From positions 3,410,001 through 3,474,000 of the forward strand of contig NZ_CP087164.1 of NCBI RefSeq assembly GCF_021172045.1: a stretch of 64,000 nt of DNA, given 5' to 3'. Made by a program: the position numbers and the translations under genes. The DNA comes from Capillimicrobium parvum. GTDB taxonomy: Bacteria > Actinomycetota > Thermoleophilia > Solirubrobacterales > Solirubrobacteraceae. Of this stretch, positions 11,310 through 57,618 are shown in pieces; position 1 is the stretch's first letter; each line of letters begins with the position of its first letter. The notes beneath the pieces were generated by a model. The model was given only the letters and a program-made list of their open reading frames with translations. It was not told the DNA's origin and did not search any database.

Positions 11310-12361
11310 CAGCCGACCTCGGCAAGGACCTTGAGGTCGTCGCCGGGATCGGTCGCCAGGCGCTCGAGCTCGCCCGGCACGTCCTCGAGGCCGACGCGCC
11401 GGGTGATGAGCGCCTCGGCGTCGAGCGCGCCGGCGGCGATCATGGCGGCGACGCGCTCGAGGTCGTGCGCGTAGCCGAGGCTGGCGACGAGCGTGCGCTC
11501 GTAGAGGACGAGCTGACGCGCCGGGTCGATCGCCGGCGGCGTCTTCGGCAGCCCGACGAGCACGATCGTGCCGCCGCGCACGGTCATGTCGGGCGCCGCC
11601 TCGAGCGCGGCGGGCACCCCGCTGGCGTCGACGACGAGCCGCACCTCGCCCACCGTCTCGCGCACATGCTTCGCGACCTCGCGCGGCGTCCCTGACGGCG
11701 CGATCACGGCGTGGCCCGCGGCCTCGGCCCGGGCCCGCCGGCCCGGATGCGGCTCGCTGACCGTGACGTCGAGCCCCATCGCGGCGCCCACGGCGGCGGT
11801 GGTCGCGCCGATCGGGCCGTAGCCGAGGACCACGACCCGCTCGCCCGCCCGCGCGCCGCCGCGATCGAGCGCGTGCAGCCCGACCGCCAGCGGCTCGAGC
11901 AGCGCGCCCGCCTCGTCGGAGACGTCGTCGGACAACGGGATCGCCGCGTAGGCCGGGAAGCGCACCAGCGGGGCGAAGGCGCCGTCGGAGCACAGGCCGA
12001 TCGAGCCCGACGACGGGCACAGGTTGTACTGGCCCGAGCGGCATGCGGCGCACACCCCGCAGCGCCAGCACGCGTCCGCGGCCACGCGGTCGCCGACCGC
12101 GACCTCCGTCACGCCGGGTCCCACCGCGGTGATCCGCGCCGAGAACTCGTGGCCGAGCGTGACCGGCGGCTCCTGGCCGCTCAGCCGGTGCGTCCGGCCG
12201 GGGCGGATGGCGAACGGCCCGTGCGCGTACTCGCCGACGTCGCTTCCGCAGATGCCGCAGAAGCGCACCTCCGCCTCCACCATCCCCGCGCTGAGCGGCA
12301 ACTCCAGGTCCACCTCGTCAAGGCGCACGTCGCGGCGGTTGTGCCAACGCACAGCGAGCAT
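11309..12361 (-). CDS. Zinc-dependent alcohol dehydrogenase (MDR family)
   Basis: Medium-chain dehydrogenase of 350 residues, first gene of the nine-gene operon. The catalytic zinc site is CGICGSD (about 35-41) with GHEF near 70. The structural zinc loop is CWRCGVCAACRSGQYNLC (four Cys), and the NAD fold has VVVLGYGPIGATT near 180. It resembles the threonine/2,3-butanediol/sorbitol dehydrogenase branch. The ATG lies 8 nt after TATAGG (minus strand 12375-12370), suggesting a leaderless mRNA. The first codons also contain the dyad site used by the divergent hyuA promoter, so the two operons share control DNA. Confidence 0.9.
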   Translation of the reverse strand: MLAVRWHNRRDVRLDEVDLELPLSAGMVEAEVRFCGICGSDVGEYAHGPFAIRPGRTHRLSGQEPPVTLGHEFSARITAVGPGVTEVAVGDRVAADACWRCGVCAACRSGQYNLCPSSGSIGLCSDGAFAPLVRFPAYAAIPLSDDVSDEAGALLEPLAVGLHALDRGGARAGERVVVLGYGPIGATTAAVGAAMGLDVTVSEPHPGRRARAEAAGHAVIAPSGTPREVAKHVRETVGEVRLVVDASGVPAALEAAPDMTVRGGTIVLVGLPKTPPAIDPARQLVLYERTLVASLGYAHDLERVAAMIAAGALDAEALITRRVGLEDVPGELERLATDPGDDLKVLAEVG

Positions 12362-12402
12362 GCCCGGACCCTATAACCGGTCGCCCGACCCACTGCTAGC
12401 GT
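12339..12402 (+). promoter_or_regulatory. Proposed activator dyad and -10 for hyuA operon
   Basis: TTGTGCCAACGCACAG (12339-12354) is an imperfect dyad lying inside the first codons of the divergent ADH gene. After 42 bp comes TAGCGT (12397-12402), a -10-like hexamer 60 bp before the hyuA ATG. Spacing matches the other sites of the proposed regulon. The ribosome-binding region AAAGAGGAG precedes the ATG. Confidence 0.6.
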
Positions 12403-12431
12403 CGCGCCGGGCTCTCGTAGGTTGGTCCAAA
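12370..12431 (-). promoter_or_regulatory. Proposed promoter of the nine-gene operon
   Basis: On the minus strand TATAGG (12375-12370) sits 8 nt before the ADH ATG, as expected for a leaderless transcript. A weaker relative of the dyad, TTTGGACCAACCTACGA (12431-12415), ends 39 bp upstream of it. This is the poorest match of the set, and the 39-bp spacing is outside the 40-42 bp of the others. Confidence 0.35.
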
Positions 12432-12462
12432 GAGGGAGCCGACGATCGAAAGAGGAGCGCGA

Positions 12463-14571: not shown

Positions 14572-14582
14572 GGGAGCGCGTC

Positions 14583-18593: not shown

Positions 18594-21500
18594 CTAGACG
18601 CCGGTGCCGGTCAGGTCCGCGGTCGGCGCCGAGCCGCCCGCGTCGCTGGCCAGCGAGAGCGCCGCGCTCTTCGCCCCGACGCTGGTCGGCGCGAACTGGA
18701 CGCGCACGATGCACGTCTGGCCCGCGGCGAGCGTCTGACCGGTGCACCCGTTGCTGGCCACCGGGGCGATGAACTGGTCGGCGTTCGGGCCGGTCAGGGA
18801 CGCCGCCCCGACCACGACCGAGCCGCTGGTGTTGTTCTTGAACGTGAACTTCGCCAGGCCCGTCTTCTTGCCGGTCTTCACGTCGCCGTAGGCCTTCGCG
18901 CCCGGCGACACGGTCAGCCCGCGCGACGTGCCCGTGATCTGGGCGGTCGTCGGCGAGTTGCTCGCGTTGCTGGTGACCGTGATGTCCGTCGACAGGCTGC
19001 CGCCGATCGTCGGCTTGAAGCGCACCTTGACCGTGCACTTCTTGCCGGCGGTCAGGTTCGCCCCGTCGCAGTTCTCGTCGGTGATCTCGAACTGCCCCGG
19101 GTTCGCGCCGGCCAGCGCCACGTCCGTGATGCTGAGCGTGCTGTCACCCGAGTTCGTGACGACGATCGCCTTCGTCCCGGTGACCTTGCCCGCATTCAGC
19201 GTCCCGAAGTCGTACGAGCTCGGGATGAACGCGGCGACCGGGCCGGTGTCGCCGATGCCGGTCACGGCGACCAGCGCGGGCGAGCCGGCGGCGTTGCTGT
19301 TGATCGCCAGGTCGGCGCGCTTCCTGCCGCCGCTCGTCGGCGTGAACTGCACCTTCATCGAGCAGAGCTGCCCGCCGCCCAGCGTGTGGGTGCTGCAGTT
19401 GTCCTCGGTGACGGCGAACTGGTTCGCGTCACCGCCGGTCAGGTCCACGGCGCCCAGCTGGAGCGGGGCGTCGCCGCGGTTCTTGATCCGGAACAGCTGC
19501 TCGGCCGAGCTGTGGCCGACGTCCACGTGGCCGAAGGCCTGCTGGCCGGGCGTGTAGCCGACGGCCGCGCCCGTGATGCCGGTGCCGCTCAGCGACACGG
19601 TCGCCCGCGAGCCGGGGCCGTTGCTCGGGATCGACAGCTGCGCCGTCTTCGCACCGGTGGTGTCCGGGGCGAAGCGCAGGTTGATCTCGCAGCTCTCGCC
19701 GTTGGCCAGGCCGGCGTTCTTGCAGCCGTCGGTCAGCTTGAACTGCGCCGGGTTCGCCCCGCCGAGGGCCGACGGATCGACCCGCAGCGTGCCGCCGCCG
19801 ACGTTCGTCACCGTCACCGGCATGAAGCCGGAGATCGTGCCGGTGGTCGTGTCGGGGAACGTCGCGCTCGCCGTCGACACCTGCGCCGACGGGCCGGGGC
19901 ACGGGCCGTCGAGGTCGTCGCTGCCGAGGAACGGCGTGGTGTCGACCGGGCCGGAGACCTGCGGGGCCGCCGGGCCGGTGTCGGCGCCGTACCAGTTGCA
20001 CTCGCCGTCGGCCGTCTGCGTGTCGACGGTCGACGGATCGCCGTTGCGGAACGCCCCGCCGGTGAGCGAGTTGCGGTTGAACGACACGTTGCTCAGGTCA
20101 GCCGACGCGTTGTCGATGACGATCGCGAAGTCGTTCGGGTCGGTGAACACGTTGTGGTTGACGTCCACGGTGCCCGACGTCCAGCTCGCATGGAGCTGGA
20201 ACGCGTTGCCGGCGTCGATCTCGACGTCGTTGCCGGTGACCGTCACGCCGGTGACGCCCTGGCCGATGGTGAAGCAGGTGAACGTGCAGGAGTTGCGGAT
20301 CGTGTTGTCGGTGATCTCGACGCCCGACGCCCCGGCCGCCGCCGTCGCGTTGAACACGCGGACGCGGTCCTTGTTGCCCGCGTCGGCGAGCACGACGTTG
20401 TCGCTGAACGCGAGGGTGCTCGTCTGCCAGAGGTTGAACAGCTGGTGGCCGCAACCACCGGGCGCGAGGGTCCCGGCCGTGCCACAGCCGGTCGCCGGGC
20501 GCGTCGGATGGTCGACGCGGTTGAAGGCGACCGTGCCGCCGTCCATCACCGTCGGGCCGTTGAAGTACACGGCCGTCCGCGTGATGCCGTCGAACAGGTT
20601 GTTGAGGACGCTGATGCCCGGGGCGTCGCCGCCGAAGTTGCCGCCGGCGCCGATCAGCGGATCGTTGACGTTGGCGTTCGACGTCGCCGAGTCGACGAAG
20701 CGCAGGCCGTCGATCGTGATGTCGGGGTCCTGCGCCTGGATGGCCCGCGTGCCGCCGGTCACCGCGATGGTGGCCTCGGCGACGCGTGCGCCGGGATCGT
20801 TGGGGTCGATGCCGGCGTTCGGCCCGGCGAGCGTCAGCGCCTTGTCGACGTTGGTCGAGGAGGCGTTGTCGTACGTGCCCGACGCGACGTGCGTCGTGCC
20901 GCCGGTCGTCGTGTCGTTGACGGCCTCCTGGATGCGCTCGGTCGAGCCGACCTGCGCGCCCACCGTGGTCGCCGTGATCGACGAGAAGTCGCCCGAGAAG
21001 CCGGACCCGCCGGTGTCGGTGCCGCTGCGCAGCAGCGGCGTGATGTCGAAGTTCGCCGAGGCGGGGCCGGCCACGTCCGGCTGGCCGCCGGGCGGGGTGG
21101 CGGTGCCGCCGAACTCGACGGGGATCTGGCCGGCGTAGCCCGGCTCGGCGCTGTTGGCCGTCGTGACGACGGGGCTCACCGCTCCCAGCCAGTTGCCGCT
21201 GAAGTTCTTCAGGTTCGTCACGCCCGGCGCGGGAAGCGAGCCGCCGGTCTGGCGATCGACGATCTGGCCGTACCAGTTGCCCGAGATGTCGTTATTGCTG
21301 ACGTTCGCGTTCAGCGCCTGCTGGAGCGGGCTGTTGGTGCCGCCGCTGGCGTCGAGGAACAGGACGCCGACGGTCCAGTTGTCGGTGATGAAGTTGTTCG
21401 TCACCACCAGGTCGTCGGTCTGGTTGCGGAAGATCAGGCCGGTGCGGTTGTCGTCGATGTTGTTGCGAACGATCGTGACGCCGTTGGTGTTGTTGACGTC

Positions 21501-21953
21501 GATCGCGGTCCGCAGGCCGGTGATCGTGTTGTCCGAGATGACCGCGCCGGTGATGGCCTGGCCCTGCACCGAGACGCCGGCCGACGTGAGGCCGGGGTCG
21601 TTCCAGTCGGTCGTGTTGTTGCCGGCCCGGGTGATCGTGAAGCCCCCGACGGTCACGCCGGAGGCCTGGATGGCCACGGCCGAGGAGCCGCCGCCGATCT
21701 GGCCGACGATCGTCGGGCTCCCCGTGCCGCTGAGTGTCACCGACTTGTTGACCGCGACGTTCTCGTTGTAGGTGCCGGCCTGCACCTGCACGGTGTCACC
21801 GGCGGCCGCGGCCGCGATGCCGCCGGTGATCGTGGCGGCGTCACAGCCGGTGTCGCAGACCGTGACGGTGTCAGCGTTCGCCGCTGAGGCGGACGCCGCG
21901 AACGCGCACGTGGCCACTATGGCCGCGGCGAGAGTACGACCCTTGAACTCCAC
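18594..21953 (-). CDS. Secreted right-handed beta-helix protein with four ASH (choice-of-anchor D) domains
   Basis: Large exported protein of 1119 residues. The GTG start at 21953 is chosen because ACGGAGG lies seven bases upstream; the longer frame to 22001 has no such site. Residues 1-23 are a signal peptide (VEFKGRTLAAAIVATCAFAA...). The first about 690 residues are Asn/Gly/Val-rich with repeated DNTI, NNTF/NNFI and VTVTGN motifs typical of parallel beta-helix (pectate-lyase/NosD-like) folds. They are followed by four repeats of about 105 residues (GTLNAG..., NPGQFEITDENC..., KCTVKVRFKPT...), each with a paired Cys; this is the ASH/choice-of-anchor D module. No LPXTG or membrane anchor follows. 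Likely a cell-surface or extracellular polysaccharide-interacting protein; no catalytic residues can be assigned. Confidence 0.85.
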   Translation of the reverse strand: MEFKGRTLAAAIVATCAFAASASAANADTVTVCDTGCDAATITGGIAAAAAGDTVQVQAGTYNENVAVNKSVTLSGTGSPTIVGQIGGGSSAVAIQASGVTVGGFTITRAGNNTTDWNDPGLTSAGVSVQGQAITGAVISDNTITGLRTAIDVNNTNGVTIVRNNIDDNRTGLIFRNQTDDLVVTNNFITDNWTVGVLFLDASGGTNSPLQQALNANVSNNDISGNWYGQIVDRQTGGSLPAPGVTNLKNFSGNWLGAVSPVVTTANSAEPGYAGQIPVEFGGTATPPGGQPDVAGPASANFDITPLLRSGTDTGGSGFSGDFSSITATTVGAQVGSTERIQEAVNDTTTGGTTHVASGTYDNASSTNVDKALTLAGPNAGIDPNDPGARVAEATIAVTGGTRAIQAQDPDITIDGLRFVDSATSNANVNDPLIGAGGNFGGDAPGISVLNNLFDGITRTAVYFNGPTVMDGGTVAFNRVDHPTRPATGCGTAGTLAPGGCGHQLFNLWQTSTLAFSDNVVLADAGNKDRVRVFNATAAAGASGVEITDNTIRNSCTFTCFTIGQGVTGVTVTGNDVEIDAGNAFQLHASWTSGTVDVNHNVFTDPNDFAIVIDNASADLSNVSFNRNSLTGGAFRNGDPSTVDTQTADGECNWYGADTGPAAPQVSGPVDTTPFLGSDDLDGPCPGPSAQVSTASATFPDTTTGTISGFMPVTVTNVGGGTLRVDPSALGGANPAQFKLTDGCKNAGLANGESCEINLRFAPDTTGAKTAQLSIPSNGPGSRATVSLSGTGITGAAVGYTPGQQAFGHVDVGHSSAEQLFRIKNRGDAPLQLGAVDLTGGDANQFAVTEDNCSTHTLGGGQLCSMKVQFTPTSGGRKRADLAINSNAAGSPALVAVTGIGDTGPVAAFIPSSYDFGTLNAGKVTGTKAIVVTNSGDSTLSITDVALAGANPGQFEITDENCDGANLTAGKKCTVKVRFKPTIGGSLSTDITVTSNASNSPTTAQITGTSRGLTVSPGAKAYGDVKTGKKTGLAKFTFKNNTSGSVVVGAASLTGPNADQFIAPVASNGCTGQTLAAGQTCIVRVQFAPTSVGAKSAALSLASDAGGSAPTADLTGTGV

Positions 21954-23605: not shown

Positions 23606-23612
23606 GGCACGA

Positions 23613-23720
23613 GTCTCACGCTCCTGCGGCCGCGCGCCCCGGCGCCCGCGCTCGGCGCGTTGTGAGATGCACAAGGCCGCCGCGGCGCGGCGCCCCGCGC
23701 CGCGAGCGCGCGAGTAGCGT
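23613..23720. promoter_or_regulatory. Proposed divergent activator dyad (LLM gene and SDR)
   Basis: TTGTGAGATGCACAA (23660-23674) is a dyad with perfect 5-bp arms. To the right TAGCGT (23715-23720) begins 40 bp downstream and lies 9 nt before the SDR ATG. To the left, on the minus strand, TGAGAC (23618-23613) is 41 bp away and lies 7 nt before the LLM ATG. One symmetric site could therefore serve both genes. Confidence 0.6.
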
Positions 23721-32223: not shown

Positions 32224-32334
32224 GTTGTAGTCGGGCGCCGGCGACCGCCGCCGCGCCGGCCGAGGCACTTCTGTCGCAATCGACAAATCCGCGCGCGCGA
32301 GCGGCGCCGGGGCGCCGAACGGCGTCCGTAGGAT
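32224..32334. promoter_or_regulatory. Proposed divergent activator dyad (cupin-ligase and SDR-hydrolase)
   Basis: CTGTCGCAATCGACAA (32271-32286) contains the perfect arms TGTCG/CGACA. To the right TAGGAT (32329-32334) begins 42 bp away, 33 nt before the SDR ATG. To the left TACAAC (minus strand 32229-32224) is 41 bp away and 6 nt before the cupin GTG. Spacing on both sides agrees with the other sites. Confidence 0.6.
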
Positions 32335-34160: not shown

Positions 34161-34541
34161 ATGAGCGGCTTCTCGGTCACGCCCCACGACCTGCAGGGGG
34201 ACCGGCGCACCGTGGCGGTCGCCGGCGACCTCGACGTGCACACGGCGCTGAGGCTCGAGATGGCGCTGGACGCCGCCGTCGACGAGGGCGCTCGGCACCT
34301 CGAGATCGACCTGGCCGAGACGGCGTTCATGGACTCGACGGGGCTGGCCGCGCTCGCCGCCGCCCACCGCCGCGTGCAGCAGCGCGGCGGCTCCCTGCGG
34401 CTCACCAACGTCAGCCGCGCGGTAATGCGGGTCCTCGAGGTCACCGCGATGGACACCGTGCTGATGGCCGAGCCCGAGGACGACGACGACGTCAGAGCAG
34501 GCGCTTCTCGAACCAGTGGTCCGCGAAGTCCTGGTCGTTGA
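34161..34541 (+). CDS. STAS-domain anti-sigma factor antagonist
   Basis: SpoIIAA/RsbV-like STAS protein of 126 residues. The phosphorylatable serine is Ser59 in AFMDSTGLAAL, and the fold is bounded by VAVAGDLDVHTAL and SLRLTNVSRAVMRVLEVT. It would bind an anti-sigma factor kinase when unphosphorylated, but no partner kinase or sigma factor is in the window. The C-terminal about 20 residues (after EPEDDDD) are unstructured and lie over the end of the convergent MarR-GNAT gene, a 50-bp overlap. TAGTCC (34149-34154) lies six bases before the ATG, which suggests a leaderless start. Confidence 0.85.
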   Translation: MSGFSVTPHDLQGDRRTVAVAGDLDVHTALRLEMALDAAVDEGARHLEIDLAETAFMDSTGLAALAAAHRRVQQRGGSLRLTNVSRAVMRVLEVTAMDTVLMAEPEDDDDVRAGASRTSGPRSPGR

Positions 34542-35981: not shown

Positions 35982-36104
35982 ACGCTACCCGTCGCCCGCC
36001 GCCCGGCATCGCGAGATCCGCGGGGCCCCCAGCCGGGCTTTGTGGCGCCGCGACAACGCCGGCGCCCGCACCGGCTTGACCGGTGGCCATCCGGCTGGGA
36101 CGCT
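35982..36104. promoter_or_regulatory. Proposed divergent dyad (nitroreductase and PucR regulator)
   Basis: TTGTGGCGCCGCGACAA (36040-36056) is a TTGT-N9-ACAA dyad. To the right GACGCT (36099-36104) begins 42 bp away and serves the regulator gene. To the left TAGCGT (minus strand 35987-35982) is 52 bp away, one helical turn more than the usual spacing, and serves the nitroreductase. Confidence 0.6.
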
Positions 36105-36139: not shown

Positions 36140-37414
36140 GTGCGGACAACGACCATCGCGCCGACGCACAGCGGGCGTGACGAGGTCAACGAGATCGTCG
36201 AGGCGATGAGCGCGGAGCTCGACCAGCTCGCACGGGTGCTGACCGACATGATCCACGAGAAGATCGCGGAGCTCGACGACGACATCTACGTGTGGACGCT
36301 GCAGAGCGTGCGCGCGAACCTCGGGCTGATCGTCACGCTGCTGCGCGAGGGCACGGCGCCCTCGAGCGCCCAGGCGCCGCCCGAGGCGCTGGCCTACGCG
36401 AAGGAATACGTCCGCCGGGCGCTGCCGTTCGAGCTCCTCGGCCGGGCCTACCGGATCGGGCAGGCCAGCCTCTCGCGCTACTGGCTCGAGCGCCTGCACG
36501 CCCGCACGGACGACCCGGACGACCTGGTCGACACCTTCGGGTTCCTCAGCGACTGGCTGTTCGCGTGGGTGGAGACCCTCGAGCACCAGCTCACCGAGTT
36601 CTACATGCGCGAGCGCGAGCAGTGGGTGCGCGGCGCCGCCGCCGTGCGCGCGGCGGAGGTGCGCGCGCTGCTCGAAGGCGCGCGCGTCGACGTGCACGAG
36701 ACGAGCAAGCGCCTGGCCTACAACCTCGACCGCCACCACGTCGCGTTCGTCATCTGGAGCGACGAGGCCGACCGCGACGCCGGCGACGGCGCGGCGGTGC
36801 GCTTCGGCGAGATGGAGCGCCTCGCCGTCCGGGTCGCCGCCTCGCTCGGCGCGCACGCACCGCTCATCGTCCCGCAGGGCCACCATCTCGCCTGCTGGAC
36901 CGGCTTCCACGAACCGCCGGTGCTCGCCGACCCGCCGCTCGCGGAGGACGAGGACGAGGGCGCCGGGCTGCGCGTCGCGCTCGGCGCGGCCTCCCCCGGG
37001 CTCGACGGCTTCTGCATCAGCCACCGCGAGGCGCTGCAGGCGCGCCGCGTGGCCAAGCTCGACAGCCGGGGCGACGCGCCGTGCACCGCCTTCGCCGACG
37101 TCGCGCTCGACGTCCTGACGACCCAGGACGCCGGCGAGGCGCTGCGCTTCGTCGCCCGCGAGCTCGGGCCGCTCGCGGCCGGCGACGAGGCTGCCCGCCG
37201 CCTGACCGCCACGCTGCGCGCGTTCCTCGACGAGGGCTCGAGCTTCGTGCGGGCGTCGCGCCTGCTCGGCGTCCACGAGAACACCGTCGCCTACCGCGTG
37301 CACCGGGCCGAGGAGCTGCTCGGCCACCGTGTGGCGGAGCGCCAGCTCGAACTGCGCGTGGCGCTGCGGCTCGCGCAGCTGCTCGGCCCCGAGGCGATCG
37401 CACCGCCGGCCTGA
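36140..37414 (+). CDS. PucR/CdaR-type transcriptional regulator
   Basis: Regulator of 424 residues. The N-terminal about 190 residues are helical without a recognised sensor fold (ends of the RsbR-N/PucR N-terminal type), the middle is a GGDEF-like domain without its catalytic motif, and the C-terminal PucR HTH is visible as FVRASRLLGVHENTVAYRVHRAEELLGH (about 365-400). The GTG at 36140 has AGGAGG four bases upstream and is preferred to the ATG at 36083. It faces the four-gene split-dikinase cluster end to end (48-bp gap) and its own promoter carries the common dyad, so it is a candidate activator of the regulon. Confidence 0.88.
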   Translation: MRTTTIAPTHSGRDEVNEIVEAMSAELDQLARVLTDMIHEKIAELDDDIYVWTLQSVRANLGLIVTLLREGTAPSSAQAPPEALAYAKEYVRRALPFELLGRAYRIGQASLSRYWLERLHARTDDPDDLVDTFGFLSDWLFAWVETLEHQLTEFYMREREQWVRGAAAVRAAEVRALLEGARVDVHETSKRLAYNLDRHHVAFVIWSDEADRDAGDGAAVRFGEMERLAVRVAASLGAHAPLIVPQGHHLACWTGFHEPPVLADPPLAEDEDEGAGLRVALGAASPGLDGFCISHREALQARRVAKLDSRGDAPCTAFADVALDVLTTQDAGEALRFVARELGPLAAGDEAARRLTATLRAFLDEGSSFVRASRLLGVHENTVAYRVHRAEELLGHRVAERQLELRVALRLAQLLGPEAIAPPA

Positions 37415-37462: not shown

Positions 37463-39022
37463 TCAGCGGCCCGCCGCGGCGCGCGCCTGCTGGACGTCGT
37501 CCTCGAGCAGCGTCGAGCCGCGGTCGCGCAGGACCGCGGAGCTCGCCTGGGCGACCTTGTAGAGGTCGTCCGCCCGCGGGTCGCCGGGGTGGTTCTTCAG
37601 CCACCAGTCGTCGTCGTAGTGGCGCAGGTCCCAGCCGGCGGGCTTGAACTCGCGCGCCAGCCGGTTGTTCTCCTCCTGCGTCAGCTTGCCGCGGGTCGTC
37701 GTCCACAGGGCGCTCTTCGTCGGCAGCGACGTGCTCCCGGGCCCGATCGGTCCGACGCCCGACGTCCACTCGTCGTCGGCGAGGATCGAGTACGGGACGC
37801 CCGTCCACATCTCGCCACGCGCGTCGGTGAACTTCGTCATGTGGTGCTCGCTGTGGTTCTGCGAGCTCATCGACAGCAGGCCGACGGTCTCGGCGATGAG
37901 CATGCCGCCGTACTCGTCGTTCATCAGCGGCTTGAAGCGCTGGCACTGCTCGTCGACCTCGAACCAGTCGGTCTGCTCGTAGACGCCGGCGAAGTGCGCG
38001 AGGTCCTTCGTCACCCCCGAGTACACGAGCAGGCCGGCGTCGATCATCTGGTCGCGGGACCACCCGGCCATCATCTTCCACATCCCCGCGGTCGCGTCGG
38101 TCATCTTCTCGCGCAGGTCGTCGAGGTAGTCGGCGAGCTCCTCGGCCGAGTCCATGTGGACCGGGATGTAGCCGTCGGAGAGGTGGTCGGACGTGTAGAC
38201 GCCGACGGCGACGAGGTTGTCGTTGTCGTAGGCGGGGGTCGCCTCGAACGAGCCCCAGTCGTCGACGATGTTGAAGTGCGTGTCCTTCATGATCACGACG
38301 ACCGTGAGGTTGTTGTGCTCGATCTCCGACGCCACCCCGTCCATCCAGGGGTAGTCGCACTCGGCGAGGTCGAGCATGTCGCGCACGAGCATCTCGTGGC
38401 CGCCCTTGGTCATGTACGGGCCGTGGTTGTTGAAGCTCAGCCGGCACTCGCAGTGGCTGAGGAACCCGTACGCCGACGCGGTCGCCATGAAGCGCCCGAA
38501 CGCCGTGTGCAGCTTGTCGCCGGGCGTCACGCCGAGCGCGTCGGCCTCCAGCACCTGCGTCTGGCGCTCGGTGTGGACCTGGGCGCGATGGCCCGCGTCG
38601 CTCGGGATGACGTGCGCGTGGGAGCGGTGGTAGGACAGGTTCAGCCGGCGCCCGAAGTCGAGCACCGACAGGATGTCGTCGATCGCGTCGGTCGGCTTGA
38701 GCATCCCCATGTCCAGGAGGATCTGGCGGCCGCCGAGGTAGAACTGCGGGATCAGGCCGGCGGTGATCGTCGACACGTAGCTGCCGACCTGGCGCGCGCG
38801 ATCGCCGATCTCCTCGGCCGGCATCGCCGCGTCGATCTTGCGCAGCAGCTCGGGCCAGCGGTACCAGGCGTTGAAGTACGACAGCGCGATGTACGGGTTG
38901 ACCGGAAACAGCTTGGACTCCTGGACGGTGCGCGTCGTGCACTGCCAGAAGAAGGACTCGCTCGCCTTGCGGACGTAGGCGTTGGCCTCGAGCAGGTCGA
39001 GGTGGGAGTGGTTGGCGGGCAT
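37463..39022 (-). CDS. Unrecognised 519-residue protein of the split-dikinase cluster
   Basis: Not recognised as a named family. It is soluble (no signal peptide or membrane helix), Trp/Asp/His-rich and near neutral. Conserved-looking features are SHAHVIPSDAGHRAQVHTERQ (about 130-150), FLSHCECRLSFNNHGPYMTKGGHEM, VVIMKDTHFNIVDDWG and SQNHSEHHMTKFTDARGEMW, i.e. several His/Asp clusters that could bind metal. ATG 39022 follows GAGAGGA. It lies 14 bp downstream of the swivel-domain gene and is last in the cluster with the ATP-grasp protein. By analogy with phenylphosphate synthase-like systems it may bind and hold the phosphate acceptor or be the next enzyme acting on the phosphorylated product. 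This is inference only. Confidence 0.85.
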   Translation of the reverse strand: MPANHSHLDLLEANAYVRKASESFFWQCTTRTVQESKLFPVNPYIALSYFNAWYRWPELLRKIDAAMPAEEIGDRARQVGSYVSTITAGLIPQFYLGGRQILLDMGMLKPTDAIDDILSVLDFGRRLNLSYHRSHAHVIPSDAGHRAQVHTERQTQVLEADALGVTPGDKLHTAFGRFMATASAYGFLSHCECRLSFNNHGPYMTKGGHEMLVRDMLDLAECDYPWMDGVASEIEHNNLTVVVIMKDTHFNIVDDWGSFEATPAYDNDNLVAVGVYTSDHLSDGYIPVHMDSAEELADYLDDLREKMTDATAGMWKMMAGWSRDQMIDAGLLVYSGVTKDLAHFAGVYEQTDWFEVDEQCQRFKPLMNDEYGGMLIAETVGLLSMSSQNHSEHHMTKFTDARGEMWTGVPYSILADDEWTSGVGPIGPGSTSLPTKSALWTTTRGKLTQEENNRLAREFKPAGWDLRHYDDDWWLKNHPGDPRADDLYKVAQASSAVLRDRGSTLLEDDVQQARAAAGR

Positions 39023-39036
39023 CGCTCGCGGTCCTC

Positions 39037-39762
39037 TCAGGAGAGCTTGATGATCCGGGCGCGCTGCGCCTTGGCGGTCGCGGCGTCGGCGTAGGCGTCG
39101 GCCGCCGGCTTGGAGTACTCGACGACGATCGCGTCGCCCTCGGACAGGCCGTCGAGCTCGGCGGCCATCAGGCACGGCACGCTGTACTCGCGCGTGAGGA
39201 TGCCGAGGTGCGAGCGCACGGTGCCGCCCATGCAGATCACCGCGGCGAAGTCCCCGAGGATCGGGGCGGTCAGCGTGCCGCCCGAGTCGTCGATGACCGC
39301 GATCGTGCCCTCGGGCACGCCCTCCGTCAGCATCTCCATGACCCGCTCGACGTCGGAGACGAAGCGCGCGGTGCCCTCGACGTCGGCACGCGCCTTGAAC
39401 ACGTTGTCGCCCGTGCCGACGATCGGCCGGCCCTGCTCGTCGCTGTCCTGCGCGCCCGAGTCGGCGCGCTCCGCGGGCGCCGCGTACTTGTCGGGCTCCT
39501 CCTGCAGCGAGACGACGGCGGACATCTGGAAGCGGTAGCCGGTGGAGAGCAGCTCGGCCTCGACCTTCTCGAAGTCCTCGCGGGTGAGCTGCAGCGACTT
39601 GTCCTGGACGGCCTCCTCCCACGTCCTGCCGCTGGCGGCGAGACGCTCGGCGACGATCTTGCGGATCGCCGTGTGGTAGGCCTCGACGATCGGCGTGCCC
39701 GACGGGCGGGCCCACTTGTCCGGGTAGGGGGTCACGCCCCCGGCCGCCACGGTGTCGGTCAT
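39037..39762 (-). CDS. PEP-utilising mobile (phosphohistidine swivel) domain protein
   Basis: Stand-alone swivel protein of 241 residues. The C-terminal half (about 150-230) is the PEP-synthase/PPDK phosphohistidine domain with active His185 in GGTVRSHLGILTREYSVP; the N-terminal half (1-110) is helical and unassigned. The ATG overlaps the stop of the ATP-grasp protein (ATGA), so the two are co-translated and probably exchange a phosphoryl group. The upstream partner already has its own swivel domain, so this cluster has two phosphohistidines. No PEP/pyruvate-binding TIM barrel is present in either protein. Confidence 0.9.
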   Translation of the reverse strand: MTDTVAAGGVTPYPDKWARPSGTPIVEAYHTAIRKIVAERLAASGRTWEEAVQDKSLQLTREDFEKVEAELLSTGYRFQMSAVVSLQEEPDKYAAPAERADSGAQDSDEQGRPIVGTGDNVFKARADVEGTARFVSDVERVMEMLTEGVPEGTIAVIDDSGGTLTAPILGDFAAVICMGGTVRSHLGILTREYSVPCLMAAELDGLSEGDAIVVEYSKPAADAYADAATAKAQRARIIKLS

Positions 39763-41537
39763 CTCTCCTCCTCGGATCTACTGGCCTCCTGCGCGAGGCG
39801 CAGGAGCAGGATGGCCTCGTGCTGCCCGGGCAGCCGCACGACGGCGGGCACTCCGCTGCGCGCGACGGCGCGCGCGCCCTCGGCGGTGGCGAGCACCGAG
39901 CCGCGGGCGGCGGGCGCGCCGGCCAGCCGCTGCGCGATCGCGCCGGCGTCCGGCGCGTCCTCGGGGTCGAGCACGAGCCCGGCCTCGTCGAGGTCGACGA
40001 CCTCCTCGGCCTCGTCGACCACGGCCGTCGGGCTGAGCTCGCGCGCCCACGCGACGAGCTCGGCGAGGCCGGGCACGTCGTCCTCGCCCACCTCCTCGGT
40101 CGCCAGCCGCCCGGCGTACACGACTCCGGCCGAGCCGTCGACCGTCACCTCGCGGTCCGCCCACGCGCCGGTCGCGCCCTCGCCGACGCCGACGACGCTG
40201 GGCCGGCCGAGCGCGCGCGTCACCACCGCGGCGTGCGACGTGGAGCCGCCGCGCTCGGTGACCACCGCGCGCGCCGCGATCATCCCGGAGACGTCCTCCG
40301 GGCTCGTGGTCGGGCGGGCGAGCACGACGTCCTCGCCCGCGTCCGCCGCCGCCTCGGCCGCGTCCGCATCGGCCACGACCCGGCCCGACGCGACGCCCGG
40401 GCACGCCGCGACGCCGCGCACGAGCACCTCGGCGACGTCGGCGGTCTCGCGCGCGAGCCGGGGCGCGAGCACGCTCGCGAGCTGCTCGGCGCTCACGCGG
40501 GCGATCGCCTGCGCCGGCTCGATGGCGCCCTCGGTGGCGAGGTCCACCGCCGTGCGGACCGCGGCCAGTGGCGCGCGCTTGGCCGAGCGGGTCTGCAGCA
40601 GGTACAGCCGGCCGCCCTCGACGGTGAACTCGATGTCCTGCACGTCGCCGTTCGTGCGCTCGAGCAGCGCGGCGGCCGCGAGCAGCTCGTCGTGGACCTC
40701 CGGCATCTGCTCGCGCAGCGCTTCGAGCGGCAGCGGGTCGTGGCTGCCGCTGACGACGTCCTCGCCCTGGCCGCCGGGCAGCCACTCGCCGTAGGGCTCG
40801 GGCGCGCCGCTGAGCGGGTCGCGCGTGAACAGCACGCCGGTGCCGGAGCGCTCGCCGAGGTTGCCGAACACCATCGCCTGCACCACCACCGCGGTCCCGC
40901 CGTCCTGCGGGATCCCCCAGTGCTTGCGGTAGGCGATCGCGCGGCGCGAGGACCACGACTCGAACACGGCGTGGATCGCCGCGCGCAGCTGGTCGTACGG
41001 GTCGCCGGGGACCTGCTCGCCGGTGTCCTCCTCGATCTCGGCGCAGACGACGTCGGGCGTCGCGTCGTCGCCCGGATCGTCGATGTCCGCGCCGAGCACC
41101 GTGTGGCCGAACTCGTGGCAGAAGCGCACATGGGTCGAGCGGGCGAAGCCCGCGTCGCCCGACAGGGCCGCCAGCCCCTCGCGCACCGCCTCCGTCATGC
41201 CGAGGTTGAGGATCGTGTCCATCATCCCCGGCATGCTCACCGCGGCGCCCGAGCGCACGGACACCAGCAGCGGCGCCTGCGGGTCGCCGAGCCGGCGCCC
41301 GGTCCTGGACTCGAGTTCCGCCACGCCCTCGAGGACCGCGGCCCACACCTTGTCGTCGAGGCGCCCACCGGCCGCGTGGTAGCGGCGGCACTCCTCGATC
41401 GGCAGGGCGAACGCCGGCGGGACCGGCAGGCCGAGGCCGAGCATCCGCGCGACCGACGCGCCCTTGTTGCCGATCTGCTCGCGATCGGCCAGCGTGTCGC
41501 CGTCGAGCACGATGACGTGCTCGCTGACGCCGCTCAC
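39759..41537 (-). CDS. Truncated pyruvate phosphate dikinase-like protein (ATP-grasp plus swivel, no TIM barrel)
   Basis: Protein of 592 residues whose first 440 match PPDK. The ATP-binding N-terminal domain has GNKGASVARMLGLGLPVPPAFAL (about 23-45), SVRSGAAVSMPGMMDTILNLG and GTGVLFTRDPLSG; the swivel domain has catalytic His435 in TERGGSTSHAAVV. True PPDK continues for about 350 more residues with the PEP/pyruvate TIM barrel; here only 157 unrelated residues follow. The enzyme should therefore phosphorylate its His from ATP and hand the phosphoryl group to a non-pyruvate acceptor, possibly via the neighbouring swivel protein. The GTG start at 41537 has only a weak ribosome-binding site. Confidence 0.9.
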   Translation of the reverse strand: MSGVSEHVIVLDGDTLADREQIGNKGASVARMLGLGLPVPPAFALPIEECRRYHAAGGRLDDKVWAAVLEGVAELESRTGRRLGDPQAPLLVSVRSGAAVSMPGMMDTILNLGMTEAVREGLAALSGDAGFARSTHVRFCHEFGHTVLGADIDDPGDDATPDVVCAEIEEDTGEQVPGDPYDQLRAAIHAVFESWSSRRAIAYRKHWGIPQDGGTAVVVQAMVFGNLGERSGTGVLFTRDPLSGAPEPYGEWLPGGQGEDVVSGSHDPLPLEALREQMPEVHDELLAAAALLERTNGDVQDIEFTVEGGRLYLLQTRSAKRAPLAAVRTAVDLATEGAIEPAQAIARVSAEQLASVLAPRLARETADVAEVLVRGVAACPGVASGRVVADADAAEAAADAGEDVVLARPTTSPEDVSGMIAARAVVTERGGSTSHAAVVTRALGRPSVVGVGEGATGAWADREVTVDGSAGVVYAGRLATEEVGEDDVPGLAELVAWARELSPTAVVDEAEEVVDLDEAGLVLDPEDAPDAGAIAQRLAGAPAARGSVLATAEGARAVARSGVPAVVRLPGQHEAILLLRLAQEASRSEEER

Positions 41538-41589
41538 GATGCAACCACCCGCAGGGTCGTGACCGCGGTGGGTGAGGACCCGCAGGGTC

Positions 41590-42207
41590 TCACGGCGCCT
41601 CCTCGCGCTCGCGGCCCAGCATGCGCAGGAGGTCCTCGTGCAGCTCGAACCAGACCGTGTGGTAGCTGTCGATCCGCGCGCCGCTGACGTAGTCGGTCTC
41701 GCCGGCGAGCACGCGGTCGTAGGCGGCGTCGAGCCGGCGGCGGTACTCGCCCATCCGCGGCAGCAGGGCCGAGAAGCGGTCGAGCACCTTCTCGGCGCGC
41801 TCGTGCTGGCGTCCGAGGCGGTCGACGACGCCGTGGTCGTAGTCGGCGTCGGAGTGGTCGTTGGGCACCCGCTCGCCGCCGGGGGTCGGCATCATCTGCC
41901 AGTCGGTGAACAGCGCGAGCAGCTCGCGGTTGATGCGCTCGAAGCGCTCGTACGCGGCGGTCGCCTCCGGGTCGGCGCGGAAGCCCGCGAACGCCTCGGG
42001 GTAGCGGTCGGCCAGCCACTCGCGCCCCGGGGGCGTGACCATGAAGGTGCCCTTCGCGCCGACCGCCCGCCCCGCGGCGACCGCGGCGTCGAGCGCGCCG
42101 GACACCGTCGCCGCATCCGCTCCGAGGATGTCGGCCACCGCGTCGGGCCCGCCGGCCTTCTTGACGGCGAGCCCGTGCAGGGCGAGCAGCTCCAGGTCGT
42201 CGGTCAT
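41590..42207 (-). CDS. Winged-helix-like protein associated with the PPDK-like cluster
   Basis: Protein of 205 residues. The N-terminal 65 residues look like a winged helix (LALHGLAVKKAGGPDAVADILGADAATVSGALDAAVAAGRAV, then a wing GTFMVTPPGREWL). The C-terminal domain is helical with a conserved-looking FTDWQMMP...NDHSDADYDHGVVDRLGRQ. A similar small protein is often a neighbour of PPDK-like genes in actinobacteria (recalled, not checked). It starts the four-gene cluster; TACCGT lies nine bases upstream of its ATG, suggesting a nearly leaderless mRNA. It may bind DNA, or may be an enzyme subunit that reuses the fold. Confidence 0.8.
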   Translation of the reverse strand: MTDDLELLALHGLAVKKAGGPDAVADILGADAATVSGALDAAVAAGRAVGAKGTFMVTPPGREWLADRYPEAFAGFRADPEATAAYERFERINRELLALFTDWQMMPTPGGERVPNDHSDADYDHGVVDRLGRQHERAEKVLDRFSALLPRMGEYRRRLDAAYDRVLAGETDYVSGARIDSYHTVWFELHEDLLRMLGREREEAP

Positions 42208-42293
42208 GCGTTCGGCACGGTAGGCCCACCGACCCTCCGCGCGGGCGCGCGCGGAGCGGCCGGATTGTGGACCTCGACAATCCGGGCACCCAG
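42208..42293. promoter_or_regulatory. Proposed dyad and -10 for the split-dikinase cluster
   Basis: CCGGATTGT (42260-42268) and ACAATCCGG (42277-42285) are perfect 9-bp arms around GGACCTCG, giving a TTGT-N8-ACAA core. On the minus strand TACCGT (42222-42217) lies 42 bp from the core and 9 nt before the ATG at 42207. This is the most symmetric site in the window and lies directly beside the 81-bp repeats. Confidence 0.65.
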
Positions 42294-45126: not shown

Positions 45127-45189
45127 ATGCTGTCCGATCGCCGCGCGGCGACCGCGCGGGCGGGTTGCCCGGCTTGGAGGATTCACCAA
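45127..45189 (-). promoter_or_regulatory. Proposed dyad and -10 for ADH operon
   Basis: TTGGAGGATTCACCAA (45174-45189) is almost the same as the site upstream of the solute-binding protein (56989-57003). On the minus strand CAGCAT (45132-45127) lies 41 bp downstream, 34 nt before the ADH ATG. Confidence 0.55.
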
Positions 45190-47569: not shown

Positions 47570-47633
47570 AGCGTCGCACGCGGCCGCGGGGTCGCGGAGG
47601 CGGCGGGCGCGCGGGCGTTGTGCGGTTTCCAAA
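47570..47633 (-). promoter_or_regulatory. Proposed dyad and leaderless -10 for ligase-SDR operon
   Basis: TTGTGCGGTTTCCAAA (plus strand 47618-47633) lies 42 bp from GACGCT (minus strand 47575-47570), which is six bases before the ligase ATG. The sequence GACGCTGGCGCC before ATG is the same as upstream of the DUF2277 gene at 62700 except for the first base. Confidence 0.6.
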
Positions 47634-48754: not shown

Positions 48755-48817
48755 AGGATGATGGACCGCGAGCGGCGGCGTGGAGGCCCCGCGTCCGGGG
48801 CTTGTGCGAAACCCCAA
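48755..48817 (-). promoter_or_regulatory. Proposed dyad and -10 for the thiolase-like gene
   Basis: TTGTGCGAAACCCCAA (plus strand 48802-48817) lies 41 bp from CATCCT (minus strand 48760-48755), with 37 nt to the GTG. The dyad arms are weak; the left arm TTGTGCG is identical to that of the ligase promoter at 47618. Confidence 0.45.
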
Positions 48818-48854: not shown

Positions 48855-50795
48855 CTATGTGGCCGCGGCGCGCACCACCTCGAGCGACGAGCGCCGCGTC
48901 GTGTCGGCGACCGCCGGGCTCGGCTCGGGCAGCCGCCCCTGCAGCAGCAGGACGAGCAGCGCCATGCGCACGCGCAGCTGCGCGTCCGGGTCGTGCGTCA
49001 CCGCCAGGCCGGTGAGGTCCTCGATGCGGGCGAGCCGGTAGCGGATCGTGTTCTCGTGGACGTCGAGGCACGCCGCGCAGCGCCGGATCGACGCCATGTT
49101 GTCGAAGAACGAGCACAGCGTCGTGAGCAGGTCGGCCTTCGACGGATCGTCGACGAGGCTGCCGAACGTCTGCTCCGCCGACGCGGTGACGAGCTCGTTG
49201 TCCGACGTGGCCAGGAACAGCGCGCCCGCGCCCAGGTCCGCCGACGAGAAGATCGCCGGACCGCCCGGCGGCGAGAAGCGCCGGATGCACTCGACGACCT
49301 GGCGCGCCTCGCCGAACGCGCTGCGGTAGCCGTCGCGGTCGCAGCGCACCGGCGACACGCCCGCGACGAGCCGGTCGCCGCGCGGGAGCTGGGCCCCGAC
49401 CCGACGCACGACGTCCTTGAGGTATGCGGTGAACGCCTCGTCCTCGAGCCCCGGCAGCTGCTCGGCGAGGACGGCGACGCCGCCGCTGACCGCCGTCGCG
49501 TGGACGCTCAGCTCGGGGGCGACCTTGCGCAGCGCCGCGGCGACCGCCCGGAAGTCGAGCGTGGCGGCGCCGGCGCGCGAGCGCGGCCCGATGAGCATCA
49601 CGGCGCGCGGCGCGTCGAGGCGGAAGCCGAGGCGCTCGGCCCGCCGGCGCAGCACGGTCTCCTCGCAGCAGCCGCCGAGCACCTCGGCGGCGAGCGACGC
49701 GCCCGCGTCCCAGTCGGCCTCGATGGCCTGGCGCTCGGTGCCGACCTGCAGCGCGATGAGCGTCGCCGCGCGGCGCAGGGTGAGCATGTCGCCGCCGACG
49801 AAGCGCGACTTGTGCTCCATGACGACGAGCCGGCCCCAGGTCTCCGCCCCGACGATGATCGGCGCGATCACGTAGCGGTGCATGACGCCGGCCAGCGGGA
49901 GGGGGCCGACGACGAACGCGCGGCTGCCGTCGTGGGCGGCCAGCGCGTCACGGACCTCCGGGCGGTCGATGTACGGCGACTCGAGGATGCGGGGAGCGAT
50001 GCCGTCGTCCGTGCCCGGCGGCGCGGCCGTGGCGAGCCGCGTGTTGTCGGCGTCGAACACGGCGCACGGCTTGACGAGCACCACGGCGAGCTCCTCGAGC
50101 AGCTCGTGCAGCGTGGCGCCCTGGAGCACGAGGTCGCTGAGGCGCTCGTCGACGACGCTCGAACGGCGCAGCGCGTTGATGTGGCGCTGGGCGGCATCGA
50201 CCTGCGCGCGCAGCTCGGCGCGCGACTGGGCGTGCATGACCGCGACGGCGGCGAGGTCGCCGAACGTCGAGGCCACCTCCGCGTCCTCGCCGGTGAAGAC
50301 GTGCGGCCCGGCCATGTCGTCGAGGAAGATCACGCCGATGACCTCGTCCTGGAAGATCATCGGGACGGCCATGATCGCGTGGATCTTCCAGAAGCGGACC
50401 GTCGACTTGATGATGCGCGGGTCCTGGTGCGCGTTGTCGACGATGACCGGGCGCTTCGTGCGCAGCAGCTCGAGGATGAGGCGGTCCGACGGGCCGCCGA
50501 CGCGGGAGCGCTTGATGTCGGCGTCGCGGGTCGGCTCGCCGGCGTAGCAGACGCAGCCGAGGAACAGCCCGGCCTTCTCGTCGCGCAGGTGGATCGAGCA
50601 GCGCTCGACGCCGACGAGCTCGCAGATGTGCCGCGCGACCGCGTGCAGCAGCCCGTCGAGGTCCGCCGAGTCGTCGGCCGCCGCGGCCACGCGCGAGAAC
50701 GCGGCCAGCGCGCGGCGGAGGCTGGCGCTGCCGGCGTGGCCGGGCGCGGACTTGCTCGGCGTCGCCTTGGCGCGCGTGCGCACTGTGGTGCTCAC
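48855..50795 (-). CDS. GAF-domain PucR-type regulator
   Basis: Regulator of 646 residues. A GAF domain occupies about residues 45-200 (HICELVGVERCSIHLRDE..., AVPMIFQDEVIGVIFLDD), a middle about 230-400 region is a second sensor-like part (ELAVVLVKPCAVFDADN...), a GGDEF-like domain without its motif follows, and the PucR HTH is CLDVHENTIRYRLARIEDLTG near residue 600. The GTG at 50795 has GAGGAGG upstream. It is divergent from an ADC-fold gene across a 319-bp control region with two dyads. It is the second candidate, after 36140-37414, for the regulon's DNA-binding protein; GAF domains often bind aromatic or other small effectors. Confidence 0.9.
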   Translation of the reverse strand: MSTTVRTRAKATPSKSAPGHAGSASLRRALAAFSRVAAAADDSADLDGLLHAVARHICELVGVERCSIHLRDEKAGLFLGCVCYAGEPTRDADIKRSRVGGPSDRLILELLRTKRPVIVDNAHQDPRIIKSTVRFWKIHAIMAVPMIFQDEVIGVIFLDDMAGPHVFTGEDAEVASTFGDLAAVAVMHAQSRAELRAQVDAAQRHINALRRSSVVDERLSDLVLQGATLHELLEELAVVLVKPCAVFDADNTRLATAAPPGTDDGIAPRILESPYIDRPEVRDALAAHDGSRAFVVGPLPLAGVMHRYVIAPIIVGAETWGRLVVMEHKSRFVGGDMLTLRRAATLIALQVGTERQAIEADWDAGASLAAEVLGGCCEETVLRRRAERLGFRLDAPRAVMLIGPRSRAGAATLDFRAVAAALRKVAPELSVHATAVSGGVAVLAEQLPGLEDEAFTAYLKDVVRRVGAQLPRGDRLVAGVSPVRCDRDGYRSAFGEARQVVECIRRFSPPGGPAIFSSADLGAGALFLATSDNELVTASAEQTFGSLVDDPSKADLLTTLCSFFDNMASIRRCAACLDVHENTIRYRLARIEDLTGLAVTHDPDAQLRVRMALLVLLLQGRLPEPSPAVADTTRRSSLEVVRAAAT

Positions 50796-50891: not shown

Positions 50892-50968
50892 AATGTACGG
50901 GGCCCCGCGCGGTTCGTCGTCGTACCCAACGACCGATACGCCACCTCGCAGTTGTGGCCTGCCTACAA
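50892..50968 (-). promoter_or_regulatory. Proposed dyad upstream of the GAF regulator
   Basis: TTGTGGCCTGCCTACAA (50952-50968) is TTGT-N9-ACAA and shares the frame TTGTGGC-N6-ACAACG with the site before the other PucR-type regulator. The nearest fair hexamer on the minus strand is GTACAT (50898-50893), 53 bp away, or TACATT, 54 bp away, about one helical turn beyond the usual 41 bp. Autoregulation is possible. Confidence 0.45.
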
Positions 50969-51015: not shown

Positions 51016-51077
51016 CTGTGGGTTCTCCAAGGCGCGCACCCGCGCGCGTGCGCGCGCGCGAGCGCCGCGTCTAGCGT
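51016..51077 (+). promoter_or_regulatory. Proposed dyad and -10 for ADC-fold gene 1
   Basis: CTGTGGGTTCTCCAA (51016-51030) is followed after 41 bp by TAGCGT (51072-51077), 37 nt before the ATG at 51115. Arms are CTG-x-GG/CCAA, weaker than in the best sites, but spacing and hexamer match. Confidence 0.5.
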
Positions 51078-56940: not shown

Positions 56941-57003
56941 AGCGTAAGGACGGTCTGACAGTCCTCGGTACGGTTCGGCGAACCGCATTTGGAGAATCAC
57001 CAA
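56941..57003 (-). promoter_or_regulatory. Proposed dyad and -10 for the ABC importer operon
   Basis: TTGGAGAATCACCAA (56989-57003) lies 42 bp from TACGCT (minus strand 56946-56941), 47 nt before the lipoprotein ATG. The TACGCT hexamer is the best of the set, and the dyad nearly matches the ADH operon's site (TTGGAG-GATTCACCAA). Confidence 0.65.
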
Positions 57004-57033
57004 CTGCCTGACCGAACGCGGGCCGCATGGTGC

Positions 57034-57480
57034 TCACGTGACCCGGTGGACCCGGTATTCGACGCCCGGCCCGACCACGACCCGGCCCTCCGCGACGAAC
57101 ACGGTCTGGTTCACCCACGCGTACCGTTCGTCGCCCGTCTCGAGACGCGGCGTCGTGCGGAAGTAGCTGTCGCCGAACTGGCTGTCGCGCTCGCCTCCGA
57201 CGGCGGCGAGGATCGCGTCCGTGTACTCGATGACGCCGAAGTACTGCACGTAGATGCTGGCGCCGTCGTCGGTGTAGAGCGTGGTTCTGACGTCGAGGCG
57301 CCCGAACCCGTCGGGCCCGGCCAGGATCCAGTCGGCGCCGCCGCCGATCGTCCCGCTGATGCGGTCGCCGGTCGCCTTGCCGCCGGTGACCTCGAAGATG
57401 CTGCGGTCGCCGAACGGACCCGGGCCGATCGGCACGGCCTTGAGATCGGCGTTGAACGTGTACTCATGGACCAGTTCCAC
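57034..57480 (-). CDS. DUF3237-family protein
   Basis: Protein of 148 residues with a DUF3237 beta-barrel plan: HEYTFNADLKAVPIGPGPFGDRSIFEVTGGKATGDRISG..., and ADWILAGPDGFGRLDVRTTLYTDDGASIYVQYFGV at the core. GTG 57480 has AAGGAGG six bases upstream. It is divergent from the second ADC-fold gene across a control region with one dyad, and the downstream gap to the ABC importer holds that operon's promoter. Function is not known in the family. Confidence 0.85.
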   Translation of the reverse strand: MELVHEYTFNADLKAVPIGPGPFGDRSIFEVTGGKATGDRISGTIGGGADWILAGPDGFGRLDVRTTLYTDDGASIYVQYFGVIEYTDAILAAVGGERDSQFGDSYFRTTPRLETGDERYAWVNQTVFVAEGRVVVGPGVEYRVHRVT

Positions 57481-57556
57481 GCGCCCCCTCCTTGTCGTTG
57501 GACGTCTCGAGCCTCGCAAGCCCGGCGCACCGGTGCGCCGGTACCCGCGGGCGGCG

Positions 57557-57618
57557 TCGCGGTTCCTCCAACGCCGGCCGCGCCGCGACCTGCGCTGGCC
57601 GGCGGCGCGCGCGATGCT
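57557..57618 (+). promoter_or_regulatory. Proposed dyad and -10 for ADC-fold gene 2
   Basis: TCGCGGTTCCTCCAA (57557-57571) is followed after 41 bp by GATGCT (57613-57618), 28 nt before the ATG. The left arm is degenerate, but the TTCCTCCAA right part matches the site upstream of DUF2277 and the reverse of the ADH/importer sites. Confidence 0.45.

Follow-up and report, generated by a model that had tools for sequence, protein, structure and literature searches.

A 64,000-nt stretch of the Capillimicrobium parvum genome (positions 3410001-3474000 of the 5.95-Mb single contig, 1.1% of the genome, 73% GC), hereafter the window, contains a shared promoter layout, which we call layout B: a dyad of 15 or 16 bp followed after 40-42 bp by a hexamer resembling a -10 element. 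The layout is real. Its dyads and gaps recur in other genomes, they are associated with homologs of one regulator, PucR2, and hexamers are found at leaderless spacing from start codons. Genes behind the predicted sites include hydantoinase A/B-like, acyl-CoA ligase, short-chain dehydrogenase/reductase (SDR), Zn-dehydrogenase, thiolase-like, acetoacetate-decarboxylase-like and periplasmic binding protein genes. It is likely that they form a local catabolic regulon with class I-like activator promoters, in which PucR2 would act on layout B and a second protein, PucR1, on 17-bp dyads (layout A). Pfam search identified both as PucR-type proteins:

36140-37414, plus strand: PucR1, with GGDEF_2 and HTH_30 domains; candidate binder of layout A
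48855-50783, minus strand: PucR2, with GAF, GGDEF_2 and HTH_30 domains; candidate binder of layout B

Layout B in the window

A first-pass annotation of the window had described thirteen upstream regions with a dyad and a hexamer at fixed distance; its own list holds only twelve site-directions (a dyad taken in one direction). All eleven dyads that it quoted are present at their coordinates, once each. The six rightward gaps are 40-42 bp as reported, and the six leftward hexamers (dyads 32271, 42265, 45174, 47618, 48802 and 56989) lie at gaps of 41-42 bp when measured from the 15/16-bp core.

The window was scanned with an independent matrix composed of two symmetric half-sites (dyad of 15 or 16 bp), a gap of 40-42 bp and the hexamer; 17-bp dyads such as the one at 36040 fall outside it. 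Training was done on 36 promoters of other genomes, namely 23 of 24 pattern matches located within 50 kb of non-host PucR2 homologs and 13 promoters from loci of relatives. The match G007:C1:83046, near a PucR2 homolog, was left out of this set. In the window, 12 site-directions (10 dyads) score at least 18 and eight at least 20. The 41 host stretches outside the window (820 kb) yield two and none at these thresholds, and five dinucleotide-shuffled windows (320 kb) none at either. The window thus exceeds chance.

Eight of the twelve listed site-directions score at least 18 (23660, 32271 rightward, 42265 leftward, 45174, 47618, 48802, 51016 and 56989). The other four are weaker, below threshold or outside the model: 12339 (15.3) and leftward 32271 (14.0, TACAAC) are present but weaker, 57557 stays below 12 in both directions, and for 36040 the listed rightward GACGCT at gap 42 has no independent support, the convincing hexamer being the leftward TAGCGT at gap 52. 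Four site-directions scoring at least 18 are new, namely 12415, 23660 and 62664 leftward and 42265 rightward; the first two are apparently leaderless and the other two have no gene in reach. Layout B features of the window are as follows, with scores of the independent matrix:

12339-12402, plus strand: dyad 12339-12354, TAGCGT 12397-12402, gap 42, score 15.3; hydantoinase A/B and AMP-ligase genes downstream from 12463
12368-12430, minus strand: dyad 12415-12430, TAGGGT 12368-12373, gap 41, score 21.5
23612-23720, divergent: dyad 23660-23674, scores 20.2 and 19.2; rightward TAGCGT 23715-23720, gap 40, to ATG 23730; leftward GAGACT 23612-23617, gap 42, to apparently leaderless ATG 23605, 6 nt on, of a luciferase-like monooxygenase gene (leftward site missing from the first-pass list)
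32224-32334, divergent: dyad 32271-32286; rightward TAGGAT 32329-32334, gap 42, score 22.7, to SDR gene 32367; leftward imperfect TACAAC 32224-32229, gap 41, score 14.0, to GTG 32217
42217-42280, minus strand: dyad 42265-42280, TACCGT 42217-42222, gap 42, score 25.0; ATG 42207 nine nt past the hexamer, phosphoenolpyruvate (PEP)-synthase/pyruvate phosphate dikinase (PPDK)-like genes 37463-42207
45127-45189, minus strand: dyad 45174-45189, CAGCAT 45127-45132, gap 41, score 22.8; Zn-dehydrogenase gene 45092
47570-47632, minus strand: dyad 47618-47632, GACGCT 47570-47575, gap 42, score 18.2; apparently leaderless ATG 47563 of an acyl-CoA ligase gene
48755-48817, minus strand: dyad 48802-48817, CATCCT 48755-48760, gap 41, score 19.5; thiolase-like gene 48723
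51016-51077, plus strand: dyad 51016-51030, TAGCGT 51072-51077, gap 41, score 22.0; acetoacetate-decarboxylase-like gene 51115
56941-57003, minus strand: dyad 56989-57003, TACGCT 56941-56946, gap 42, score 23.8; periplasmic binding protein gene 56893
57510-57618, divergent, weak: dyad 57557-57571, score below 12 in both directions; rightward GATGCT 57613-57618, to acetoacetate-decarboxylase-like gene 57647; leftward GAGGCT 57510-57515, gap 41, to DUF3237 gene 57480 (leftward site missing from the first-pass list)

The leftward 12415 site, absent from the first-pass list, reads TTGGACCAACCTACGA-41-TAGGGT and is followed, 6 nt past the hexamer, by an apparently leaderless ATG at 12361, the first of the leftward genes 3911-12361. 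The leftward 62664 site (62617-62679, TTGGAGGAACGCACAG-41-TAGCGT, score 18.8) enters the end of a convergent gene and has no leftward start in reach.

A stricter gapped pattern ending in TASSNT gave one match in the whole host genome and none for its control; it was dropped as over-strict, because many hexamers start with G or C.

Recurrence of layout B in relatives

Fifteen loci of relatives (0.24 Mb) were scanned with a dyad matrix trained on the window, which is circular for the window itself. Eleven of them lie on or adjoin stretches with PucR2 homologs; the remaining four (L192-L195) are not PucR2 loci. These loci hold 23 intergenic 15/16-bp dyads in 26 dyad-to-gene orientations, 21 of which leave room for a hexamer. 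BANNNT is found at gap 40-42 in 17 of these 21 cases, while 0.58 are expected from other offsets. With a stricter dyad cut-off the figures are 9 of 12 and 0.23, for the four loci (three contigs) of genomes G093 and G099 6 of 7 and 0.28, and for the window 8 of 9 and 0.36. Genes were called with a codon model trained on the window, and mycobacterial loci are poorly called; locus L201 (G007), with no called genes, was excluded from the hexamer test and from the start-codon alignment below.

Density of 15/16-bp dyads reaches 141 per Mb in the window, 96 in the 15 loci and 104 in the G093/G099 loci. Values for two sets of PucR1-homolog loci are 7 and 14, for surroundings of the host's other PucR genes 19 and for random host stretches 10. 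In the latter, the one oriented dyad does carry a hexamer (L056, position 4208), by chance or as an outlying member. At the named PucR1-homolog loci, most of which are mycobacterial, the density is 69 intergenic dyads per Mb, with the layout B hexamer in none of seven cases.

Four window promoters (42207, 45092, 47563 and 48723) have a counterpart, in that one or more relatives show the layout ahead of the ortholog. It is kept for 42207 in L186 (G045) and L124 (G099), with a gap of 43 in L110 (G093), for 45092 and 48723 in L186, and for 47563 in L110 and L124. The 15 letters of the 56989 dyad occur identically at G093:C79:14659, together with TACTCT.

Association with PucR2 homologs

PucR2 homologs were detected in 14 of 101 genomes (E 1e-50), host included. 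A wider search, reaching beyond the order, detected homologs at E 1e-60 in 3 of 396 genomes, namely the host, G007 and G390 (30% identity). The pattern TTGKNG-N3/4-CNMCAA-N40/42-BANNNT and, as control, its reverse were searched in the 101 genomes. The 14 genomes with PucR2 homologs contain 46 matches and 7 control matches (42 and 7 without the host), in contrast to 73 and 77 in the other 87 genomes; part of this enrichment is by design, because the pattern was drafted after relatives, PucR2 genomes among them, had been viewed. A PucR2 homolog is found at most 50 kb away for 28 of the 46 matches (host excluded, 24 of 42). A count by eye gave 14 dyads flanked by hexamers at either side, ten of them in the PucR2 genomes. 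In two genomes of one genus, G021 and G038, the PucR2 homolog is itself preceded by a layout B site; in G007 a site is located at the 3' end of the homolog. These data support the view that layout B goes with the GAF-containing, PucR2-type protein.

The host genome encodes 22 HTH_30 proteins. An occurrence of layout B at every PucR gene was considered and rejected: in 18 stretches beside the host's other PucR genes, the hexamer was found in none of four cases for 15/16-bp dyads and none of five for 17-bp dyads.

Start codons and promoter geometry

Alignment of 38 layout B promoters having a called start within 90 nt places the start codon 6-7 nt past the hexamer in 14 cases and 9 nt in two. 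In 20 promoters the start lies at least 20 nt past the hexamer, and in two, probably spurious, the hexamer overlaps the start codon. The exact distance between hexamer and start played no part in the choice of hexamers. Judging by sequence, 16 of the 38 promoters are thus spaced (6-9 nt) as in leaderless genes. With the hexamer at -12 to -7 and the start codon 6 nt on, the start codon would coincide with +1 and the dyad centre would fall at about -61 to -62.5. The annotation's placement of the dyad centre near -61 is supported both by recurrence of the same gap in other genomes and by leaderless start codons at the expected +1. Because of the same spacing, the luciferase-like gene probably starts at 23605. 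The -35 region shows a mild excess of T (11 of 38) at about -35 and no clear -35 element.

The annotation had also compared the sites with class I activators such as CRP. This comparison fits the predicted geometry and nothing further; the 36040 site moves to the second layout, and the main layout is associated with a GAF-containing protein.

PucR1 and layout A

Two 17-bp dyads with more distant hexamers were identified in the window:

35982-36056, minus strand: layout A, dyad 36040-36056, TAGCGT 35982-35987, gap 52; nitroreductase-like gene 35423-35941
50892-50968, minus strand: layout A, dyad 50952-50968, TACATT 50892-50897, gap 54; precedes the PucR2 gene

The first dyad also precedes the PucR1 gene. 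Dyad centres of layout A would fall at about -73 to -75.

Among named genomes, full-length PucR1 homologs occur in a Solirubrobacterales metagenome-assembled genome, Paraconexibacter, Conexibacter (40-43% identity) and mycobacteria. Dyads TTGTGG-N5-CCACAA of 17 bp are present near PucR1 homologs in L109, L117 and L127, and in G093 and G099 this sequence lies 18 nt upstream of the homolog. The 19 PucR1-homolog loci fetched first contain 16 oriented TTG-N11-CAA dyads with six TANNNT matches, five of them at gap 53-54 (L109, L114, L117, L123 and L127). In the named loci, 62 oriented dyads have 21 TANNNT matches, 14 of them at 52-54; all 14 are mycobacterial and represent fewer independent events, because many of the matches are nearly identical. 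Several such dyads with TANNNT at 52-54 are seen in the mycobacterial loci L095-L104.

A further 33 PucR1-homolog loci yielded just two oriented dyads and no TANNNT match (2 of 3 with the matrix version). Counting by eye across the 101 genomes gave 16 matches of the layout A pattern, in 12 genomes, and 19 of its reverse. The pattern is thus not enriched overall and support for layout A is local; for five of the 16 matches, a PucR1 homolog is at most 5 kb away.

In G093 and G099 the 17-bp dyad sits between the layout B-like dyad and the hexamer of the apparently leaderless promoter of the PucR1 gene. This arrangement, seen in two genomes of one genus, would fit autorepression by PucR1 combined with divergent activation. 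Given these layout B-like sites before PucR1 and the layout A dyad before PucR2, the two regulators may be wired both ways.

Family membership of the two regulators

HTH_30 (PF13556) is present in both regulators, with 52.7 and 54.9 bits (cut-off 27), and the GGDEF-like PF17853 in both. Within the helix-turn-helix (HTH) domain, which could be compared in 15 readable proteins of 17 (A_G002 and B_G007 were empty), all seven PucR2-type proteins share the stretch VHENTIRYR, presumably the recognition helix. All eight PucR1-type proteins have VHxNT(V/I)(A/T)YR, with A (seven proteins) or T (one) at the position of R. The common letters fit the TTG/CAA ends common to both dyads.

According to PMC7652997, the GGDEF-like domain occurs in about half of PucR family members, and PF07905 (PucR) is the family entry cited. 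At E 0.001 neither protein gave a PF07905 match, and PucR2 carries GAF instead; the assignment of both as PucR-type is therefore based on HTH and GGDEF_2 and not on PF07905.

Proposed mechanism and alternatives

We propose that a PucR2 dimer probably binds the 15/16-bp dyad TTG(G/T)NG-N3/4-CN(A/C)CAA centred near -61.5 and, once bound, probably recruits RNA polymerase in class I style to a -10 element of loose sequence (BANNNT), with no clear -35 element. A single dyad could drive two divergent promoters. PucR1 probably binds 17-bp TTGT-N9-ACAA-type dyads centred near -74 and, through the layout A dyad upstream, may control the PucR2 gene. The binding proteins and the sense of regulation (activation, not repression) are proposed from sequence.

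Several observations weigh against this scheme. Eighteen of the 46 matches in PucR2-bearing genomes, some surely due to chance, have no PucR2 homolog within 50 kb; G043 and G058 have a homolog and no pattern match, and the scan with the window-trained matrix found no site on the PucR2 contigs L188 and L189. In the window, the site upstream of the PucR2 gene is the 17-bp layout A, and the nearest 15/16-bp site facing this gene (51016 leftward) has TGTCGT at gap 42, which is not BANNNT. In L110 (G093), no more than 13 nt separate the dyad from the called start of the 45092 ortholog; for the 51115 homologs of L189 and L191, no upstream site is listed. Promoters of relatives in the same genus (G021/G038, G031/G045, G093/G099) cannot be counted as independent. 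Finally, the -10 hexamer is loose, its first base often being G or C, and the difference between the layouts, 12-13 bp, does not quite correspond to a helical turn.

The promoters might differ by gap and not by protein, PucR1 and PucR2 each binding both dyad types. The nearly identical HTH stretches and common dyad ends speak for this, as do the G093/G099 promoter bearing both dyads and the high dyad density of the named, mostly mycobacterial loci, though none of the seven cases there has the layout B hexamer. We consider it unlikely in view of relatives, where 15/16-bp dyads are concentrated at PucR2 loci (96 per Mb versus 7 and 14 at PucR1-homolog loci) and 17-bp dyads are sparser there (13 per Mb versus 42 and 17).

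It is also rather unlikely that another regulator binds layout B dyads and PucR2 is a mere neighbour. Such a view would accommodate the matches without a PucR2 homolog within 50 kb; the presence of PucR2 in all seven locus sets of relatives carries no weight in the matter, since every set includes stretches picked for PucR2. However, the pattern exceeds its control solely in genomes with PucR2 homologs. Two further regulators were noticed in the window; the MarR-GNAT fusion described below is missing from the relatives' loci that were compared, and few of these contain PucR1. Moreover, the PucR-type protein MabR is reported to recognise the same TTGT...ACAA core (PMC5541348).

Similar dyads serve repressors of other families, so that the dyads could be operators of a repressor at coincidentally constant distance from the -10 hexamer. 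This seems very improbable: a dyad ending near -54 clears the core promoter, the aligned promoters have no clear -35 element, and the PucR-type regulators reviewed are activators, with Bacillus subtilis PucR acting in both ways (PMC7652997).

A chance origin, by fitting of hexamers in GC-rich intergenic DNA, could appeal to the annotation's choice of hexamers partly by position and to the bare dyad, TTGK-N8-MCAA, whose 20 places in the host genome (three in the window) equal the 20 of its reversed control and argue against a genome-wide motif, but it is contradicted by the independent model, by other genomes and by start-codon spacing alike, and is practically negligible.

Other features of the window

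Three further features were observed:

34492-35379: fusion of a MarR-type domain with a GNAT acetyltransferase; no counterpart among the relatives' loci compared
37463-42207: four-gene unit with PPDK/PEP-synthase-like proteins, 69-82% identical in G045, G093 and G099
18594-21917: reading frame of 1107 aa whose start resembles a secretion signal

The 519-aa and 205-aa proteins of the four-gene unit have no Pfam or NCBIfam match. Speculatively, the unit might perform a kinase-type step like that of phenylphosphate synthase.

Significance and comparison with known systems

By 2020, few PucR-type regulators had been studied (PMC7652997). Given such constant geometry, promoters, start sites, leaderless genes and regulon members could be predicted by rule in high-GC genomes of the Solirubrobacterales type, in which promoters are difficult to recognise. 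With about ten natural promoters of the same design and divergent pairs on one operator, the window offers material on the contact between PucR-type activators and RNA polymerase. More tentatively, PucR activators of Actinomycetota might fall into subfamilies with fixed operator length and promoter position, an HTH residue tracking the dyad, and mutual control: the GAF type with 15/16 bp at -61.5 and R, the other, found also in Mycobacterium, with 17 bp at about -74 and A or T. If true, a regulator would evolve together with its operator and the promoter geometry, as one unit, and sequence alone would suffice to read a regulon.

At class I promoters of Escherichia coli, CRP binds a single dyad centred near -61.5 and the -10 element is activator-dependent; CRP sites occur at several helical steps. 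Layout B has a single dyad with a predicted centre near -61.5 and a -10 element that would likewise depend on an activator, but its putative activator belongs to another protein family and its position is nearly constant. PruC of mycobacteria, a PucR family member that was not found in our literature search, acts on one proline operon through a TTGT...ACAA-type operator. No report of a PucR regulon with fixed geometry was found in the literature searched, in which subscription journals are thinly covered and papers are represented in part.

MabR, the PucR-type activator of the mycobacterial fasII operon, recognises TTTTGT-N9-ACAAAA, a palindrome containing the TTGT-N9-ACAA core of layout A. 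Its position is not fixed, since its sites lie at -87 and -147 in two mycobacteria; the site of FasR, its orthologue in Streptomyces coelicolor, is predicted near -67 (PMC5541348). Unlike the genes considered here, the target is a biosynthetic operon, and the 15/16-bp dyad at -61.5 differs from it. GabR of Corynebacterium glutamicum is, as proposed for PucR2, a local activator of a catabolic operon bound to inverted repeats upstream, but it uses two 21-bp repeats per promoter (-87 to -23), lacks the GGDEF-like domain and controls one operon; PutR and AdeR sites are repeats of 17 and 24 bp (PMC7652997). Upstream binding by PucR-type activators is thus known from single promoters in these sources. 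The window, by comparison, appears to hold a whole PucR-type, class I-like regulon of unusually rigid geometry, with a second PucR layout alongside.

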